A DNA stretch of 35,761 bases from contig CALHQW010000029.1 in the NCBI GenBank assembly GCA_938040315.1, positions 1 through 35,761 on the forward strand, given 5' to 3'. The stretch is from an uncultured bacterium (GTDB lineage: Bacteria; Hydrothermota; Tepidihabitantia; Tepidihabitantales; DTDR01). Of this stretch, positions 11,351-19,731 are shown piece after piece. The number at the start of each line of letters is the position of its first letter. Position 1 is the stretch's first letter. The notes beneath the pieces were generated by a model. The model did no database searches. It had not been told where the DNA came from and saw nothing but the letters and a program-made list of their open reading frames with translations. The translations under genes were made by a program, and so were the position numbers.

Positions 11351-12187
11351 ATGATAAAGAAAACGAAAAAATATTTAAAAGCAATCTGGGCAGAAAATAT
11401 AAAAGAATGGAAGATTGAATTATCTTATAAGACAGATTTTTTAAGAACCTTTATTGACCCAATAGTTTATCTTTTACCCTATTTGCTTTATGGAATAGCA
11501 ATTGTTGGTGGTCGGGAATCTCAAGAATTGAAAAGATTGACTGGGATGGGTGATATTGTGAGTTTTATCTTACTTGGTTATATTTTTATTGGTTTCATGA
11601 ATATGGCATTATGGGCAATGGGATTTTCTTTAAGGAAGGAGCAATACTACGGAACTTTAGAGCAAGTGTTTTCTACACCAGTTCCTCGATGGGTTTTTAC
11701 TTTGGGAATGGCGCTCCATTCTACCCTTCACCAAACATTGATTTTATTATTTCAAATAATCATTATTAATCTCATTTTTACTTTATCTTTTAATCTTTCA
11801 GGAATTTTACCTTCTTTAATTGTTGTCGCCTTAATGATTTTATCTTTATATGGTTTTGGAATGATGATTGCTGGTTTAACTCTTACTTTAAAACAAGGTT
11901 GGTTAGTATCCGAAGCCCTTTCGGGAATAATGATGGTAATTACTCCTATTGCTTATCCTTTGGCTGTGTTGCCGATTTTTTTAAGAAAGGCATCTTATTT
12001 TATCCCTTCAACTTACGGAATTATTGCTACCAGGCACTTCCTTCTTAATGAAAGATTAGAAATTCCTTTATCAACAATTTATTTAAGATTATTTTTGTTA
12101 ACAATTATTTGGATTAGTTTTGGGTTGATAGTTTTTTATCTTATTGATAAAAAAACAAGAAAAACAGGAACATTACATACTTATTGA
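11351..12187 (+). CDS. ABC-2 type transporter permease, subunit 2
   Basis: 278 residues and about six membrane spans. ALWAMGFSLRKEQYYGTLEQ near residue 90 aligns directly with the preceding permease, and the end KKTRKTGTLHTY repeats the terminal motif of that paralogue. The gap to the first permease is two bases, so they are co-expressed. Its stop codon TGA (12185-12187) is part of the -35 box of the next promoter. Likely role: second half of a heterodimeric exporter membrane domain; substrate and ATPase are not identifiable here. Confidence 0.85.
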   Translation: MIKKTKKYLKAIWAENIKEWKIELSYKTDFLRTFIDPIVYLLPYLLYGIAIVGGRESQELKRLTGMGDIVSFILLGYIFIGFMNMALWAMGFSLRKEQYYGTLEQVFSTPVPRWVFTLGMALHSTLHQTLILLFQIIIINLIFTLSFNLSGILPSLIVVALMILSLYGFGMMIAGLTLTLKQGWLVSEALSGIMMVITPIAYPLAVLPIFLRKASYFIPSTYGIIATRHFLLNERLEIPLSTIYLRLFLLTIIWISFGLIVFYLIDKKTRKTGTLHTY

Positions 12188-12212
12188 CATTTTTAAAAAT
12201 TTTTAATAAAAT
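12184..12212 (+). promoter_or_regulatory. Promoter of the lipoprotein gene, overlapping the upstream stop codon
   Basis: TTGACA (12184-12189) contains the TGA stop of the upstream permease. A 17-base spacer leads to TAAAAT (12207-12212). Predicted +1 is near 12218, giving a leader of about 24 bases with AAGGAGG at 12231-12237 before the ATG at 12242. Confidence 0.7.
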
Positions 12213-12241
12213 TTCCAATGTTCTATACTCAAGGAGGAAAG

Positions 12242-13874: not shown

Positions 13875-13902
13875 TTGACTTAACAACCTTAAAAATTATA
13901 AT
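13875..13902 (+). promoter_or_regulatory. Promoter of the secreted esterase gene
   Basis: TTGACT at 13875-13880, 16-base spacer, perfect TATAAT at 13897-13902. The ATG at 13905 is only 3 bases past the -10 box, while the in-frame GTG at 13908 is 6 bases past it, the spacing seen at the other leaderless genes. Confidence 0.75.
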
Positions 13903-13904
13903 TT

Positions 13905-16301
13905 ATGGTGTTATTTCTATTCTTCTTTCTTCTTCAATTAAGGGATACAATAATTCCTGAAAAATGGTATTATTTAGGACCCTTTTTAATTGCTCCCCGA
14001 GAAGGAATTAGTGGGATTAAAGAAGAGGATTTTTATTTCGGAATTGACACAACTAAAAAATTTCCAACAGTTTTAGCCCAAGGAGGTTACACAAATTGGC
14101 AGTCTACTTTTTCTGATAGTGAAGGAAATGTAAAATTTTCTTTTAGTAATGTCCTTTGGGATAGTTTAATTCAATTTTATGGTTTTAGTGTTATTTTAAA
14201 TCTAACCTATGCCTATACGGAAATAGAAATGGAAGAAGATAAAATAATGCTGGTAATGGCAGAAAGGGTTGGTAGTTTTTTTATTAATGGTAAGGGTTAT
14301 CTGGGCGATGTCTATGGTCATAATTTTTTTAGAATACCAGTAAAATTTAAAAAGGGTAAGAATTCCATTTTCTTAAAAGTAAGTGGTTATGGCGAAAGGA
14401 GTTTTAAATTTATTATCTTTCAACCAAAAAATAAGATTATCCTTATTAAAGAAGATATTACAAAGCCTGATATCTTAAAAGAGCAAAAAGAGCAGCGACT
14501 TCTCTTAGGAATTCCTTTTCTAAATAATACCGAAGAAAAACTTGATTTTAAACTTAAATTTTATTTAAAAGATGAATTGATAAAAGAAGAGAATAAATCT
14601 TTGTTACCCTTTTCTATTATAAAATTTCCAATAGAATTAAAAATTGATAATAAAAAAATAAATCTTAATGATTCCTTAATTTATCTCTCCCTCTTGATTG
14701 AGACAAAAGAGGAGAAAATAAGGGATTCCTTTAAAATTTATATCACTTCAGAAACTTTGCCTCACTCAATAACTTTTATCTCTCAAATTGATTCTTCTTG
14801 TCAATATTTTGCGCTCTCCTATCCGAAAGGTTTTAATGAAAAGGAAAAGTATGGTTTAATCTATTCATTACATGGTGCTGGTGTTGAGGCAATCGGTCTT
14901 TGTAAAGTCTATTCTAAAAAAGATTTTGCTTTTGTCGCTTGTCCAACTAATAGAAGACCTTTTGGTTTTGATTGGGAAGATTGGGGATATTTAGATTGTA
15001 AGGAAGTTTTAGAATATATAATAAAAAATTATCCAATTGATACCAATAGGATATATTTAACTGGTCATTCAATGGGAGGGCATGGCTGTTGGGTGTTTGG
15101 AGTATTAAATCCCTCTTTATTTGCGGCAATTGCTCCTGGTGCCGGCTGGATTTCTCACCAATCGTATGTGCCCTGGCTTTTCCAAAGAAGTTTAATTTAT
15201 GCTGATCCAGAAATAATTGCTCTCCGAGATAAAATCTTAAAAACCTACCAAACAATCTATTATTTAGAAAATCTTCATTCCTTACCAATTTTTATCTTTC
15301 ATGGCTCTTTGGATGATAATGTGCCAACCCTTTTTGGTCGGTTTTTCAACTTTGAATTAGAAAGATTAGGTTTTAAAAAGATATATAAAGAAGTTCCCAA
15401 CGTAAAACATTGGTATAATTTACCTGATACCAATATCGTCTGTGTTGATGATCCCGAAATTATTTCTTTCTTTAAAGAGAAAAAAAGAGAAGTATTTCCT
15501 AAAAAGATTATTTTTAAAACTTATGATTTAGATATCAGTAATAAAAGTTATTGGATTGAGATTTTAAAAGAAGAGGAATTTGGGAGAGAGATAAAAATTT
15601 CTTGCGAGATTAAAAATGAAACAATATTTATAAGCACAAACAATATTAAGATTTTAAAAATCTATTTAATTCCGGAATTAAAAGATAAGAAAAATATATA
15701 TATTAAAATTAATAAAGATATTCTAAAAATCTCTCCCTTTTCACCCTTTTATTTAGTAAAGAATAAAAACTGGCAGATAAAGAAGGAAAGGAAAATAGAA
15801 AGGGAATTTTTAAGAACAATGAAGAAGGCTTATTTTTCACCTTTTATTTTGGTTTACTCAACAAAATCGGATACTGCTTACAAAATAACTTATTTTCAAG
15901 CATTGAGAGAAAGTTATCTTTGGTATCGTTATGGTAATGGTTATTGCCGAATTTTGCCCGATACTTTAATAAATAATGAGATAATAAAAAATTATAATTT
16001 AATAATCTTTGGTGATGAAAATTATAATTATTTGGCAGAAAAATTGGGTATAAAGAAAATTAAGAAAAAGATTTTTGGAGATTTGAAAGATAATTGTGCT
16101 TATCGTTTTATCTATTTCAATCCTTTAAACCGAAATAAGTTGATATTAGTTTCCTCGGGAACAAATTTAGAGAATCTTTCCCTTTCTACCTATTTTTCTT
16201 TATTATCTTCGGCAGTAGGAATGCCTGATTATGTGATCTTTAATTCGGAAGTAAAAGAAAAGGGGTTAGGTGGTGTTATTAAAATGGGATTTTTTAAATA
16301 A
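13905..16301 (+). CDS. Large secreted alpha/beta-hydrolase (esterase / prolyl-oligopeptidase-like)
   Basis: 798 residues with a short hydrophobic signal segment (about 1-11). Residues about 15-300 form beta-rich domains, including a possible jelly-roll (RVGSFFINGKGYLGDVYGH). Residues about 310-510 are an alpha/beta-hydrolase of the feruloyl-esterase/PHB-depolymerase type: oxyanion region YSLHGAG, nucleophile GHSMGGHG (Ser389), acid in HGSLDDNVP (Asp470 or 471) and His502 in NVKHWY. Residues about 520-798 are a further beta-rich region. The triad looks complete, so an active secreted hydrolase on esters or peptides is likely, but the substrate cannot be read. The true start may be GTG at 13908, judging from the promoter spacing. 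Separate transcription unit from pdxA. Confidence 0.8.
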   Translation: MVLFLFFFLLQLRDTIIPEKWYYLGPFLIAPREGISGIKEEDFYFGIDTTKKFPTVLAQGGYTNWQSTFSDSEGNVKFSFSNVLWDSLIQFYGFSVILNLTYAYTEIEMEEDKIMLVMAERVGSFFINGKGYLGDVYGHNFFRIPVKFKKGKNSIFLKVSGYGERSFKFIIFQPKNKIILIKEDITKPDILKEQKEQRLLLGIPFLNNTEEKLDFKLKFYLKDELIKEENKSLLPFSIIKFPIELKIDNKKINLNDSLIYLSLLIETKEEKIRDSFKIYITSETLPHSITFISQIDSSCQYFALSYPKGFNEKEKYGLIYSLHGAGVEAIGLCKVYSKKDFAFVACPTNRRPFGFDWEDWGYLDCKEVLEYIIKNYPIDTNRIYLTGHSMGGHGCWVFGVLNPSLFAAIAPGAGWISHQSYVPWLFQRSLIYADPEIIALRDKILKTYQTIYYLENLHSLPIFIFHGSLDDNVPTLFGRFFNFELERLGFKKIYKEVPNVKHWYNLPDTNIVCVDDPEIISFFKEKKREVFPKKIIFKTYDLDISNKSYWIEILKEEEFGREIKISCEIKNETIFISTNNIKILKIYLIPELKDKKNIYIKINKDILKISPFSPFYLVKNKNWQIKKERKIEREFLRTMKKAYFSPFILVYSTKSDTAYKITYFQALRESYLWYRYGNGYCRILPDTLINNEIIKNYNLIIFGDENYNYLAEKLGIKKIKKKIFGDLKDNCAYRFIYFNPLNRNKLILVSSGTNLENLSLSTYFSLLSSAVGMPDYVIFNSEVKEKGLGGVIKMGFFK

Positions 16302-16303
16302 AA

Positions 16304-16624
16304 TTGCGTGGTCCTTATCCGTTAACTTTGCTGCAGATTGGTTTATTAATTTATCCAAAAAGAATTGGTGTTTTTCTCATTCATAACGAAAAGAAAGAAG
16401 TGATTTATGTCGGTCGGAGTGACGAGGATTTGGCAAAGGAATTAAAAAAATATATTGACAAAGGTAAATTTTTTTCTTACGAATATGTTGTTAGTTCTAA
16501 AGAGGGCTATCTTTTAGAATGTAAATACTTTCATCAATATAAGGATAATCCCAATTTTTCAAGGGAAGATCATCCAATTCCGGCACCAAACATTGAAATA
16601 AAATGTCCAATTTGCGGGTTATAA
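16304..16624 (+). CDS. GIY-YIG-like small protein
   Basis: 106 residues, starting with TTG two bases after the esterase stop. It has a degenerate GIY-YIG arrangement: GVFLIHN in place of GIY, then VIYVGRSDE in place of YIG with the Arg, then the Glu helix LLECKYFHQY. The end is CPICGL, a single CxxC pair. This matches the small stand-alone GIY-YIG-like proteins found in many bacteria and archaea. Because the first Tyr is Phe, nuclease activity is uncertain. Its last 22 bases overlap the start of ispE in another frame, so translation of the two is linked. Cellular role unknown. Confidence 0.7.
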   Translation: MRGPYPLTLLQIGLLIYPKRIGVFLIHNEKKEVIYVGRSDEDLAKELKKYIDKGKFFSYEYVVSSKEGYLLECKYFHQYKDNPNFSREDHPIPAPNIEIKCPICGL

Positions 16625-17523
16625 CACCAGCGAAAATAAATTTTGGCTTATTTATATTAAACAAAAGAGAAGATGGCTATCATAATATTGAAACAATTTT
16701 AATCCCAATAAATCTATTTGATGAACTCTCTTTTTCTCCCTTAAAAGAAAAGAAAATTATTATTAAAGTAGTCGGTAAGAGAATAAAAAAGAAGGATAAT
16801 TTGGTTTATAAAGCAGCAAAATTATTTTTGGATACTTTTAATATAAAAAAAGGGGTAAGGATTATTTTAAAGAAAAATATTCCCATTGGCTATGGTTTAG
16901 GTGGCGGCTCATCAGATGCTGGTGCAACTCTTTATTTTTTGAATGAGCTTTTTGGAAAGGTTGCTCAAAAAAAAGAACTTTATAAATTGGCAGAGAATAT
17001 TGGAATGGATGTCCCTTTTTTTATTGACCCAAAACCTTCTTTTGCTTCCGGTCGCGGCGAAATTTTAGAAAAAATCAAAATTCCTAAATTATATTTCCTT
17101 CTTTATTTTCCCAAAACTGCTATTTCTACTAAATGGGCATATAACTATACCAAATTGACAAAACACGATTTTTCCCTTAAAATTTTAATACCTTTATTAA
17201 AGAAGAAGCAGTATAAGAAAGTATTTAAATATTTAAAGAATGATTTTCAAAATTTAATTTGTGAGCATTATAAAGAGATTAAAGAGGTTATAAATAAAAT
17301 GGAAGAGTTAAATTTAACACCGATATTAACCGGTACAGGAAGTGGTATCTATCTTTGGGTGAGAGATAGAGAAGAACAAAAAAAAGTAAAAGATTTATTA
17401 AAAGAGAAAGGAATAGAAGTTTTGGCAGTGGAGAGTTTTCTGGGGCGTCGTCTAATGGGCAGGACCCAGGATTTTGGATCCTGTTGTGGAGGTTCGAATC
17501 CTCCCGCCCCAGCCATTTTTTAA
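16603..17523 (+). CDS. ispE: 4-diphosphocytidyl-2-C-methyl-D-erythritol kinase IspE, frame reads through tRNA-Gln
   Basis: GHMP-family kinase of the MEP isoprenoid pathway that phosphorylates CDP-methylerythritol with ATP. The open frame has 306 residues. Motifs: TPAKINFGLFI with REDGYHNIET (1-30), the ATP-binding loop IPIGYGLGGGSSDAGATL (about 91-108) and TGTGSGIYLWV (about 245-255). The normal protein should end near VLAVESF (about residue 279). Instead no stop occurs before the tRNA-Gln gene, and the frame runs through all 75 tRNA bases, adding about 27 residues (from LGRRLMGRTQDFG) to a TAA at 17521. That tail has no kinase homology that I can see. Upstream it overlaps the GIY-YIG-like gene; downstream prs starts three bases after the stop. 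Confidence 0.92.
   Translation: MSNLRVITPAKINFGLFILNKREDGYHNIETILIPINLFDELSFSPLKEKKIIIKVVGKRIKKKDNLVYKAAKLFLDTFNIKKGVRIILKKNIPIGYGLGGGSSDAGATLYFLNELFGKVAQKKELYKLAENIGMDVPFFIDPKPSFASGRGEILEKIKIPKLYFLLYFPKTAISTKWAYNYTKLTKHDFSLKILIPLLKKKQYKKVFKYLKNDFQNLICEHYKEIKEVINKMEELNLTPILTGTGSGIYLWVRDREEQKKVKDLLKEKGIEVLAVESFLGRRLMGRTQDFGSCCGGSNPPAPAIF
17441..17515 (+). tRNA. trnQ: tRNA-Gln (anticodon UUG), CCA encoded
   Basis: Folded by hand. Acceptor TGGGGCG (17441-17447) pairs with CGCCCCA (17505-17511), discriminator G, genomic CCA (17513-17515). The D stem is GTCT with GGAC. The anticodon stem is CAGGA/TCCTG with loop TTTTGGA, so the anticodon is TTG at 17474-17476, reading CAA. The T arm is GGAGG-TTCGAAT-CCTCC. 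All stems are complete, so it should be functional. It lies between ispE and prs, a position conserved in many bacteria, but here it is entirely inside the ispE reading frame. No own promoter was seen, so it is probably cut from the ispE-prs transcript. Confidence 0.97.
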
Positions 17524-17526
17524 AAA

Positions 17527-18477
17527 ATGAAAGAGAATGAATTAAAAATTTTTACCGGCAGGGCTAATCCTCAATTAGCCCAAAAGATTTGTGAGATTTT
17601 AAAATTGCCATTGGGAAAAGTAACTATTTATAATTTTGCTGATGGTGAAATCTATTTAAAGATTGAAGAGAGTGTGCGCGGTTGCGATGTCTTTTTGGTT
17701 CAGCCAACAAATCCACCAGCCGAGAATTTATTAGAATGCTTCTTATTTCTGGATGCCTTAAAAAGAGCCTCGGCAGGAAGAATCACGGCAGTAATTCCTT
17801 ATTTTGGTTATGCCCGGCAAGATAGAAAAGATGAACCAAGGGTAGCAATTTCGGCAAAATTAATTGCTGATTTACTCCAAAAAAGCGGTGCTGATAGAAT
17901 TTTAACAGTTGAATTACATGCTGAGCAGATTCAAGGGTTTTTTGATATTCCTGTTGACCATATCTACTCTGCGCCAATTTTTATTGAATATTTCAAGAAA
18001 GAGAAAAAGGATATTTTAAAAGAAGGGGTTGTGGTCTCTCCGGATATTGGTGGCGCCCGTCGGGCAACTGGATTTGCGAAAAGACTCGGTGATTTACCAA
18101 TTGCAATCGTTGATAAAAGGAGGGTTGGAGCAAATCAAGCAGAGGTTTATAACTTGATTGGTGAAGTGAAAGATAAATTTTGTATTATCTTTGATGATTT
18201 GATTGATACTGCCGGAACAATTGTTAAGGCAGCCCAACTTTTAAAAGATAAAGGTGCCAAAGAAATTTATGTCTGTTCTTGTCATCCCCTCTTTTCTCAA
18301 AATTCTTGCGACAAAATTCTTAATAGCCCAATTAAGGAAGTTTTTGTTTCTGATACCATTTTTTTACCAAAAGAGAAATTAAATGATAAGATTAAACAAC
18401 TAACAATTGCCAAACTTTTAGCCGAAGCAATAAAAAGAATTCATTTCAATGAATCGGTAAGTTCATTATTTGTGTAA
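17527..18477 (+). CDS. prs: Ribose-phosphate pyrophosphokinase
   Basis: Makes PRPP from ribose 5-phosphate and ATP, feeding purine, pyrimidine, His, Trp and NAD synthesis. It has 316 residues, the standard length. Signatures: FTGRANPQLAQ, the FADGE substrate loop, the flexible loop YARQDRKDEPR, the LHAEQIQGFFDIPVDH region (most homologues have Gly where Glu stands in HAEQ) and the PRPP-binding FDDLIDTAGT (222-231). Its ATG lies 11 bases past the tRNA CCA end with a T-run between and no Shine-Dalgarno sequence. After tRNA 3' processing the prs message would therefore begin almost at its start codon, in keeping with the leaderless style of other genes here. rplY follows. Confidence 0.96.
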   Translation: MKENELKIFTGRANPQLAQKICEILKLPLGKVTIYNFADGEIYLKIEESVRGCDVFLVQPTNPPAENLLECFLFLDALKRASAGRITAVIPYFGYARQDRKDEPRVAISAKLIADLLQKSGADRILTVELHAEQIQGFFDIPVDHIYSAPIFIEYFKKEKKDILKEGVVVSPDIGGARRATGFAKRLGDLPIAIVDKRRVGANQAEVYNLIGEVKDKFCIIFDDLIDTAGTIVKAAQLLKDKGAKEIYVCSCHPLFSQNSCDKILNSPIKEVFVSDTIFLPKEKLNDKIKQLTIAKLLAEAIKRIHFNESVSSLFV

Positions 18478-18486
18478 GGAGGTAAA

Positions 18487-19137
18487 ATGGAATTAAAAAT
18501 TGTTGCTTATCTTAGAGAAAAAACCGGAAAAGAAATTTGTAAGAAATTGCGAAGAGAAGGAAAAATTCCGGCTATTTTATATGGTCGAAACGAAAAGAAT
18601 CTTAACCTTTGGGTAGCGGAAAAAGAATTTTTAAAAATCCTTTCCCAAATTGCTAAAAGAAGCCCAATTTTAAATTTGCGAATTGAAGAGAATAACGAAG
18701 AATTTCCGGTAATTTTGAAATCTTTACAGAAAAATCCTATTACCCAAAAATTTATCCATATTGATTTTCAAAAAGTTCATCCCGAAGAAAAGGTTACTGT
18801 TAATTGTCCAGTCATTTTAAAAGGAACAGCGATTGGTGTAAAAATGGGCGGAATTTTGGATCAACACCTTTATTCTATTCCAGTAAGAGGAAAAATTAAT
18901 GATATCCCACCTTATATTGAAGTTGATATTAGCAATTTAAAAATGGGTTATAGCATTCATATTAATGAGATAAAATGGGAAAAAATAGAACCAACCTTAC
19001 CTTTGGAGACCCCAATTGTTTCTGTTTTAACACCAAAGAGAATAGAAGAGGTTACTCCAACAGTAGAAGAGATTAAAGAGCCAGAAGTAATAAAAAAGAA
19101 GGAAGAAGAAAAAGAAGGAAAGGAAGAAGAAAAGTAG
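18487..19137 (+). CDS. rplY: Ribosomal protein bL25, TL5/CTC type
   Basis: Binds 5S rRNA in the large subunit. It has 216 residues, so it is the long CTC/TL5 form: N-terminal bL25 domain (about 1-90, with REGKIPAILYG), C-terminal TL5 beta domain (about 92-185, with VTVNCPVILKGTAIGVK) and then a Glu/Lys-rich tail to the end. It has a clear ribosome site, TAAGGAGG, directly overlapping the end of prs, so it is translated independently although co-transcribed. The prs-rplY-pth order is conserved across many phyla. Confidence 0.93.
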   Translation: MELKIVAYLREKTGKEICKKLRREGKIPAILYGRNEKNLNLWVAEKEFLKILSQIAKRSPILNLRIEENNEEFPVILKSLQKNPITQKFIHIDFQKVHPEEKVTVNCPVILKGTAIGVKMGGILDQHLYSIPVRGKINDIPPYIEVDISNLKMGYSIHINEIKWEKIEPTLPLETPIVSVLTPKRIEEVTPTVEEIKEPEVIKKKEEEKEGKEEEK

Positions 19138-19146
19138 TGTTTTTAG

Positions 19147-19731
19147 GTGAATGAAAAAGAAAGTTCCTATATTATCTGTGGGTTAGGTAATCCGGGTAGA
19201 GAATATCAATTTACCCGTCATAATTTAGGTTTTTTAGTATTAGATAGTTTAGTAAAAGATTTTAATGAGAAATTTAAAAACTATCAGTTTTACGAAAGTG
19301 CCAAAATTTCTTTTGAAAACAAAGAAGTCTATTTAGTAAAGCCCTTAACTTATATGAATTATTCCGGTGTCGGTTTAAAAGAATTCTTAAAAAATACCTC
19401 CGCCTATGATTTAAATAAATTCCTTTGTGTTTTAGATGATATTAATCTACCTTTCGGAAGGATTAAAATCAAGGAAAAGGGTAGTGATGGTGGTCATCGG
19501 GGATTAGCAAGCATTATTTACTATTTAGAAACTAATGAAATTCCCCGATTAAGAATTGGGATTGGTAAGCCCATCGGAATGAGCGCCACTGATTATGTCC
19601 TTTCCGAATTTAATAATGAAGAAAAAGAGAAACTTCCCGAGATTATTCAACTTGCTAAAAAGGCAATTCTTGTTTTTATTAGTGAAGGAATAAAATCAGC
19701 AATGAATAAGTTTAATAGAAAGATAAATTGA
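19147..19731 (+). CDS. pth: Peptidyl-tRNA hydrolase
   Basis: Releases tRNA from peptidyl-tRNA dropped by ribosomes. It has 194 residues, starting at GTG. Conserved elements: CGLGNPGREY with the catalytic His in TRHNLGF (His25), KPLTYMNYSG, LDDINLPFG with the catalytic-site Asp, and SDGGHRGLASI. The last corresponds to GGHNGL in E. coli, so the Asn that helps position the substrate is Arg here. RLRIGIGKP and the C-terminal lid follow. Its TGA stop (19729-19731) doubles as part of the -35 box used by ychF. Confidence 0.93.
   Translation: MNEKESSYIICGLGNPGREYQFTRHNLGFLVLDSLVKDFNEKFKNYQFYESAKISFENKEVYLVKPLTYMNYSGVGLKEFLKNTSAYDLNKFLCVLDDINLPFGRIKIKEKGSDGGHRGLASIIYYLETNEIPRLRIGIGKPIGMSATDYVLSEFNNEEKEKLPEIIQLAKKAILVFISEGIKSAMNKFNRKIN

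Follow-up and report, generated by a model that had tools for sequence, protein, structure and literature searches.

Nesting of a whole tRNA gene in a bacterial reading frame has been described for selC (tRNA-Sec), which lies within selB in Alphaproteobacteria and was presented as the first such bacterial case; the relatives of this selB-selC pair show partial overlaps, and a non-stop mRNA was proposed to arise upon processing (Mukai, 2021; PMC8124441). Overlap and punctuation by tRNAs are also known from mitochondria, for example the tRNA-Lys in cox1 of Armadillidium cited in the same paper. The locus analyzed here, in which a tRNA-Gln lies within ispE in a 35,761-nt stretch (the window) of DNA from candidate division WOR-3, is a variant of the selB-selC type of nesting. 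As in selB-selC, the whole tRNA sits inside the 3' end of a bacterial ORF whose stop adjoins the start of the next gene, the tRNA encodes a C-terminal extension, partial overlaps occur in relatives, and a non-stop mRNA is predicted. The inclusion of the whole tRNA in the ORF is also conserved in relatives, being found in four genomes of two families. However, the ispE case concerns a canonical single-copy tRNA reading CAA, an unrelated metabolic gene and WOR-3 bacteria, and a conserved internal promoter is predicted to give the tRNA a transcript of its own. The conflict between tRNA excision and mRNA integrity is shared with the mitochondrial overlaps, whereas ispE sits in a bacterial genome, which has promoters, couples transcription to translation, and encodes tmRNA. 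Compared with the conserved order ispE-(spoVG)-tRNA-Gln-prs-rplY-pth, the tRNA and the order are the same, but nearly all other loci stop ispE before or inside the tRNA. With this locus, the tRNAs known to be nested in bacterial ORFs come to include a second kind, here the sole reader of CAA codons.

ARAGORN found a single tRNA in the window, the tRNA-Gln with anticodon TTG, which scores 61 bits against the Rfam tRNA model. The surrounding frame was identified as ispE by a TIGR00154 match of 207 bits, and the genes that follow it are, in order, tRNA-Gln, prs, rplY, and pth (Table 1). The initial annotation had described an ispE frame without a stop before the tRNA that runs through all 75 nt and ends at 17521, and this was confirmed by the ARAGORN call and the ORF at 16603-17523, which lie on the same strand. 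Codon 279 (TTT) ends at 17439 and the RNase P site 17440/17441 falls within codon 280 (CTG), which bears out the further claim that cleavage at this site removes the ispE stop. Counted from these codons to the TAA, the final 27 residues of IspE, LGRRLMGRTQDFGSCCGGSNPPAPAIF, are tRNA-encoded plus two codons, in agreement with the earlier figure of about 27 extra residues. Two of the three frames through the tRNA-Gln are open, so once the stop is lost no further coincidence is needed for nesting. No fold competing with the tRNA-Gln was found, and the cloverleaf core is present in the minimum-energy fold except for the D arm. At the other end of the gene, a 106-aa ORF without a Pfam match (16304-16624) overlaps the ispE start by 22 nt.

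Table 1. Features of the ispE-tRNA-Gln-prs region, in window coordinates
Feature	Position	Strand	Remark
Promoter-like TTGACT-N16-TATAAT	13875..13902	+	upstream of gene at 13905; read by eye
ispE reading frame	16603..17523	+	306 aa plus TAA
IspE enzyme core	16603..17439	+	last predicted strand residues 274-278, at tRNA boundary
Putative -35 box TTGACA	17155..17160	+	codons Leu185-Thr186 of ispE
Putative -10 box TAAAAT	17178..17183	+	17-nt spacer; predicted start near 17190
tRNA-encoded 27-aa IspE tail LGRRLMGRTQDFGSCCGGSNPPAPAIF	17440..17520	+	predicted disordered
tRNA-Gln(UUG), CCA encoded	17441..17515	+	75 nt; sole UUG tRNA-Gln found in genome
ispE stop TAA	17521..17523	+	3 nt before prs start
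prs, ribose-phosphate diphosphokinase	17527..18477	+	without Shine-Dalgarno
rplY (bL25/Ctc)	18487..19137	+	
pth, peptidyl-tRNA hydrolase	19147..19731	+	

According to the AlphaFold model (mean pLDDT 91), in which the last strand comprises residues 274-278, the IspE fold needs no part of the tail to be complete and ends at the tRNA boundary. The closest match in the PDB spans residues 4-267, and that to NCBIfam NF011205 ends at residue 275. Disorder is predicted for the 27-residue tail, and residues 286-306 of the model fall below pLDDT 50.

The host genome (1.49 Mb, 40 contigs) contains about 45 tRNAs, among which only tRNA-Gln(UUG) is fully contained in the 3' end of a real gene; a CUG tRNA-Gln is located at another site. 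CAA makes up 198 of the 244 Gln codons in the window, so the nested tRNA, the only UUG tRNA-Gln found in the genome, should be essential. All four nested genomes, the host's among them, encode tmRNA and SmpB.

To see how nesting is distributed in the phylum, the position of each ispE stop was counted from nt 1 of the tRNA. Full nesting was found in 4 of the 147 WOR-3-phylum genomes (G000, G001, G002, and G006), representing three species of one genus and one of another family. In G001, G002, and G006, which are separate assemblies, the ispE frame is likewise open through the tRNA-Gln, so the missing stop is not a sequencing error, which the initial annotation had named as a possible refutation. 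It had also pointed to relatives as the place to look for a stop before the tRNA, and these differ: the frame is open in the three genomes just named, but most relatives with the same gene order have no overlap. In 15 WOR-3 genomes the ispE stop lies inside the tRNA, mostly as the UAA of U13-A14-A15, so that IspE ends in WGVV, and in two more (one of them L280) it ends near tRNA nt 10. The stop abuts the tRNA (0-13 nt) in 12 relatives, and the remaining relatives have a clear spacer. The overlap had been called the unusual part of a widely conserved ispE-tRNA-Gln-prs order. The order is supported among relatives, and full nesting is indeed rare, but overlap as such is commoner, since ispE ends within the tRNA or past it in about a quarter of the linked WOR-3 loci. 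The nested genomes group as a single clade in the IspE tree (support 82/77), with a single origin in 80% of the bootstrap trees, which is consistent with full nesting having arisen once. In the sister family f4 the stop abuts the tRNA in 4 of 5 cases, so nesting looks like the loss of an ispE stop at an already tight junction. Neisseria is not nested; its ispE terminates 8 nt upstream of the tRNA. In G009, G011, G013, and G029, the open frames of 343-360 aa were read as prs-side extensions and not as ispE nesting. In families f20 and f21 (L201, L203, L204, and L205), ispE overlaps the tRNA-Gln with the WGVV stop, the ispE-internal promoter is missing, and prs was not detected downstream.

Bacterial operons can contain intragenic sigma-70 promoters, which lie within an upstream coding sequence and serve the genes downstream. 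A consensus scan revealed TTGACA-N17-TAAAAT at 17155-17183 inside ispE, 286 nt upstream of the tRNA-Gln and of sigma-70 type, with 11 of 12 positions matching the consensus. It is identical in all three genus members and lies in a stretch that is unusually conserved among them at synonymous sites, with 11 of 12 informative codons the same (hypergeometric P 0.007). Of the 72 WOR-3 loci whose ispE is followed by tRNA-Gln and prs, 66 carry the strict motif at the same ispE position, where synonymous shuffling would lead one to expect 3.1; where neither gene lies downstream it was found in 1 of 21 WOR-3 loci and 0 of 61 loci from other phyla. At the family level it occurs in 18 of 25 families with the linkage and in 1 of 10 without it (P 0.0017), a comparison in which linkage and clade are partly confounded; the single unlinked family with the motif has spoVG downstream. 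The Leu-Thr pair at the site is coded TTG-ACA in 85 of 86 instances, compared with 4 of 122 at other positions of these genes, counts in which related genomes are not independent. When the loci were aligned on TTGACA alone, the -10 box emerged at exactly 17 nt (T 50/52, A 52/52, T 50/52), and in this alignment, selected on the -35 box only, the spacer is nearly random, mostly below 0.3 bits. Leu-Thr could partly be a protein-level motif, but the codon choice speaks against that alone.

The motif was also found in loci of Elusimicrobia, Omnitrophota, Poribacteria, and Desantisbacteria, and it accompanies the tRNA-Gln in Neisseria, Acinetobacter, and Halomonas. It is absent in E. coli, Klebsiella, and Proteus, where the ispE-prs pair lacks the tRNA, and in Aeromonas although the tRNA is present there; the other linked loci without the strict motif belong to f7, f15, f20, f21, f34, f35, and f37. 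Occurrence of the hexamers at a spacing of 16-18 nt beyond chance, conservation beyond protein constraint, and, with some exceptions, the tie to a downstream tRNA-Gln were each tested and each agreed with a promoter. Judged from these sequence comparisons, the tRNA-Gln very probably has its own promoter inside ispE, conserved across several phyla. Compared with intragenic sigma-70 promoters in general, its position and hexamers are kept across phyla and the codon choice of the -35 box is fixed. This is a clear case in which a promoter seems to have set residues of a protein through very long spans of evolution, and one that common laboratory bacteria would allow to be tested. The open-access literature yielded no account of such a promoter inside ispE, and the transcription-start studies consulted do not mention the ispE locus in their main text. 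A spoVG-like gene, identified from sequence and not via family search, often lies between ispE and the tRNA-Gln (L257, L281, L287, L092, L094, L101, L138, and L302), which suggests that the operon behind ispE (spoVG-tRNA-Gln-prs) may be served as a whole by the promoter, and not the tRNA specifically. In L302, which lacks the tRNA, both the spoVG-like gene and the promoter motif are retained.

Taken together, it is quite likely that nesting combined with two transcript classes keeps both products available. In the scheme that we infer for promoter activity, the two transcripts, the fates of the RNAs, and their rescue, ispE and the single-copy tRNA-Gln(UUG) would have become fully nested when ispE lost its stop at a junction where the two genes already abutted. 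One class would be full-length ispE mRNA from an upstream promoter, for which the element at 13875-13902 is a candidate source. Its translation through the tRNA would yield IspE with a harmless disordered 27-aa tail and would terminate 3 nt before prs, feeding prs. The other class would start near 17190 from the sigma-70-type promoter inside ispE; because this RNA lacks the ispE start codon, its tRNA would fold free of ispE ribosomes, and RNase P would release from it tRNA-Gln and a short-leader prs mRNA. The tRNA-Gln would be supplied mainly by this shorter transcript, and RNase P cuts on the longer one would give non-stop ispE messages to be cleared by tmRNA-SmpB. The statement in the initial annotation that a single RNA molecule cannot be both an ispE message and a source of tRNA-Gln is supported, but with a second transcript IspE and tRNA-Gln need not share each RNA, and the separate tRNA-Gln-prs transcript predicted from the conserved promoter weakens the claim that they must compete for the same one. 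A separate tRNA promoter had been named as refuting evidence; one is predicted within ispE. Non-stop rescue, which the initial annotation had listed among the consequences, may occur, given the presence of tmRNA and SmpB. The promoter finding shows a way in which a cell can survive such nesting. On a wider scale, we think it likely, though with a little more reserve, that an ancient promoter of (spoVG)-tRNA-Gln(UUG)-prs in the ispE frame, fixing Leu-Thr as TTG-ACA across phyla and lost upon separation of the genes, allowed the WOR-3 nesting without starving the cell of either product.

The overlap itself is most economically read as a neutral by-product, in which a stop was lost at a tight junction and the loss was tolerated through a harmless tail and surplus transcripts. 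This reading is compatible with the two-transcript model, and we lean towards an overlap without function. The abutting stops of 12 relatives, including those of family f4, the two open tRNA frames, and the predicted disorder of the tail all fit it, and a point mutation to stop would cut the last strand of IspE. Persistence over long branches hints weakly at a use, as does the ispE stop lying -10 to +6 nt from the prs start in all four nested genomes. The individual distances (+3, +1, +6, and -10 nt), together with the lack of a Shine-Dalgarno sequence at prs in all four, would also suit translational coupling, in which ribosomes must cross the tRNA to reach prs and nesting was selected to feed prs. 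However, prs lacks a strong Shine-Dalgarno in the non-nested f4 too, and tRNA processing alone would leave prs with an 11-nt leader. Since Shine-Dalgarno use is sparse in the host genome and starts without it are ordinary there, prs included, its absence was rejected as evidence for coupling. Selection for such coupling appears unlikely.

The nesting geometry, its retention since the ancestor of two families, and the presence of tmRNA and SmpB would also fit an either/or switch on one RNA, as proposed for selB-selC (Mukai, 2021; PMC8124441), in which folding of the tRNA-Gln and its release by RNase P destroy the ispE message and tie tRNA demand inversely to IspE output. However, the conserved promoter inside ispE would uncouple tRNA-Gln from IspE, overlap is missing in most relatives that share the gene order, and two essential products would be taxed. 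We know of no functional link between IspE and Gln decoding, and nothing was found in support of the link between isoprenoid synthesis and Gln decoding that the initial annotation had raised. Such a switch seems improbable.

The strict motif occurs at five places in the window (1.1 expected), and of the four outside ispE, three are located 5-7 nt ahead of an ORF start; in the host genome it is rare and precedes tRNA genes and operons. The strict promoters at 509-544, 12184-12218, and 28506-28471 (minus strand) end 5-7 nt before the first ATG of the operon and those at tRNA genes sit at about -38, which suggests that host mRNAs may be leaderless and that tRNA transcripts may start at or near nt 1. 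In Acinetobacter (L293 and L294), four copies of tRNA-Gln(UUG) follow ispE, and a second motif, TTGACA-N17-TAAAGT, precedes the last copy.
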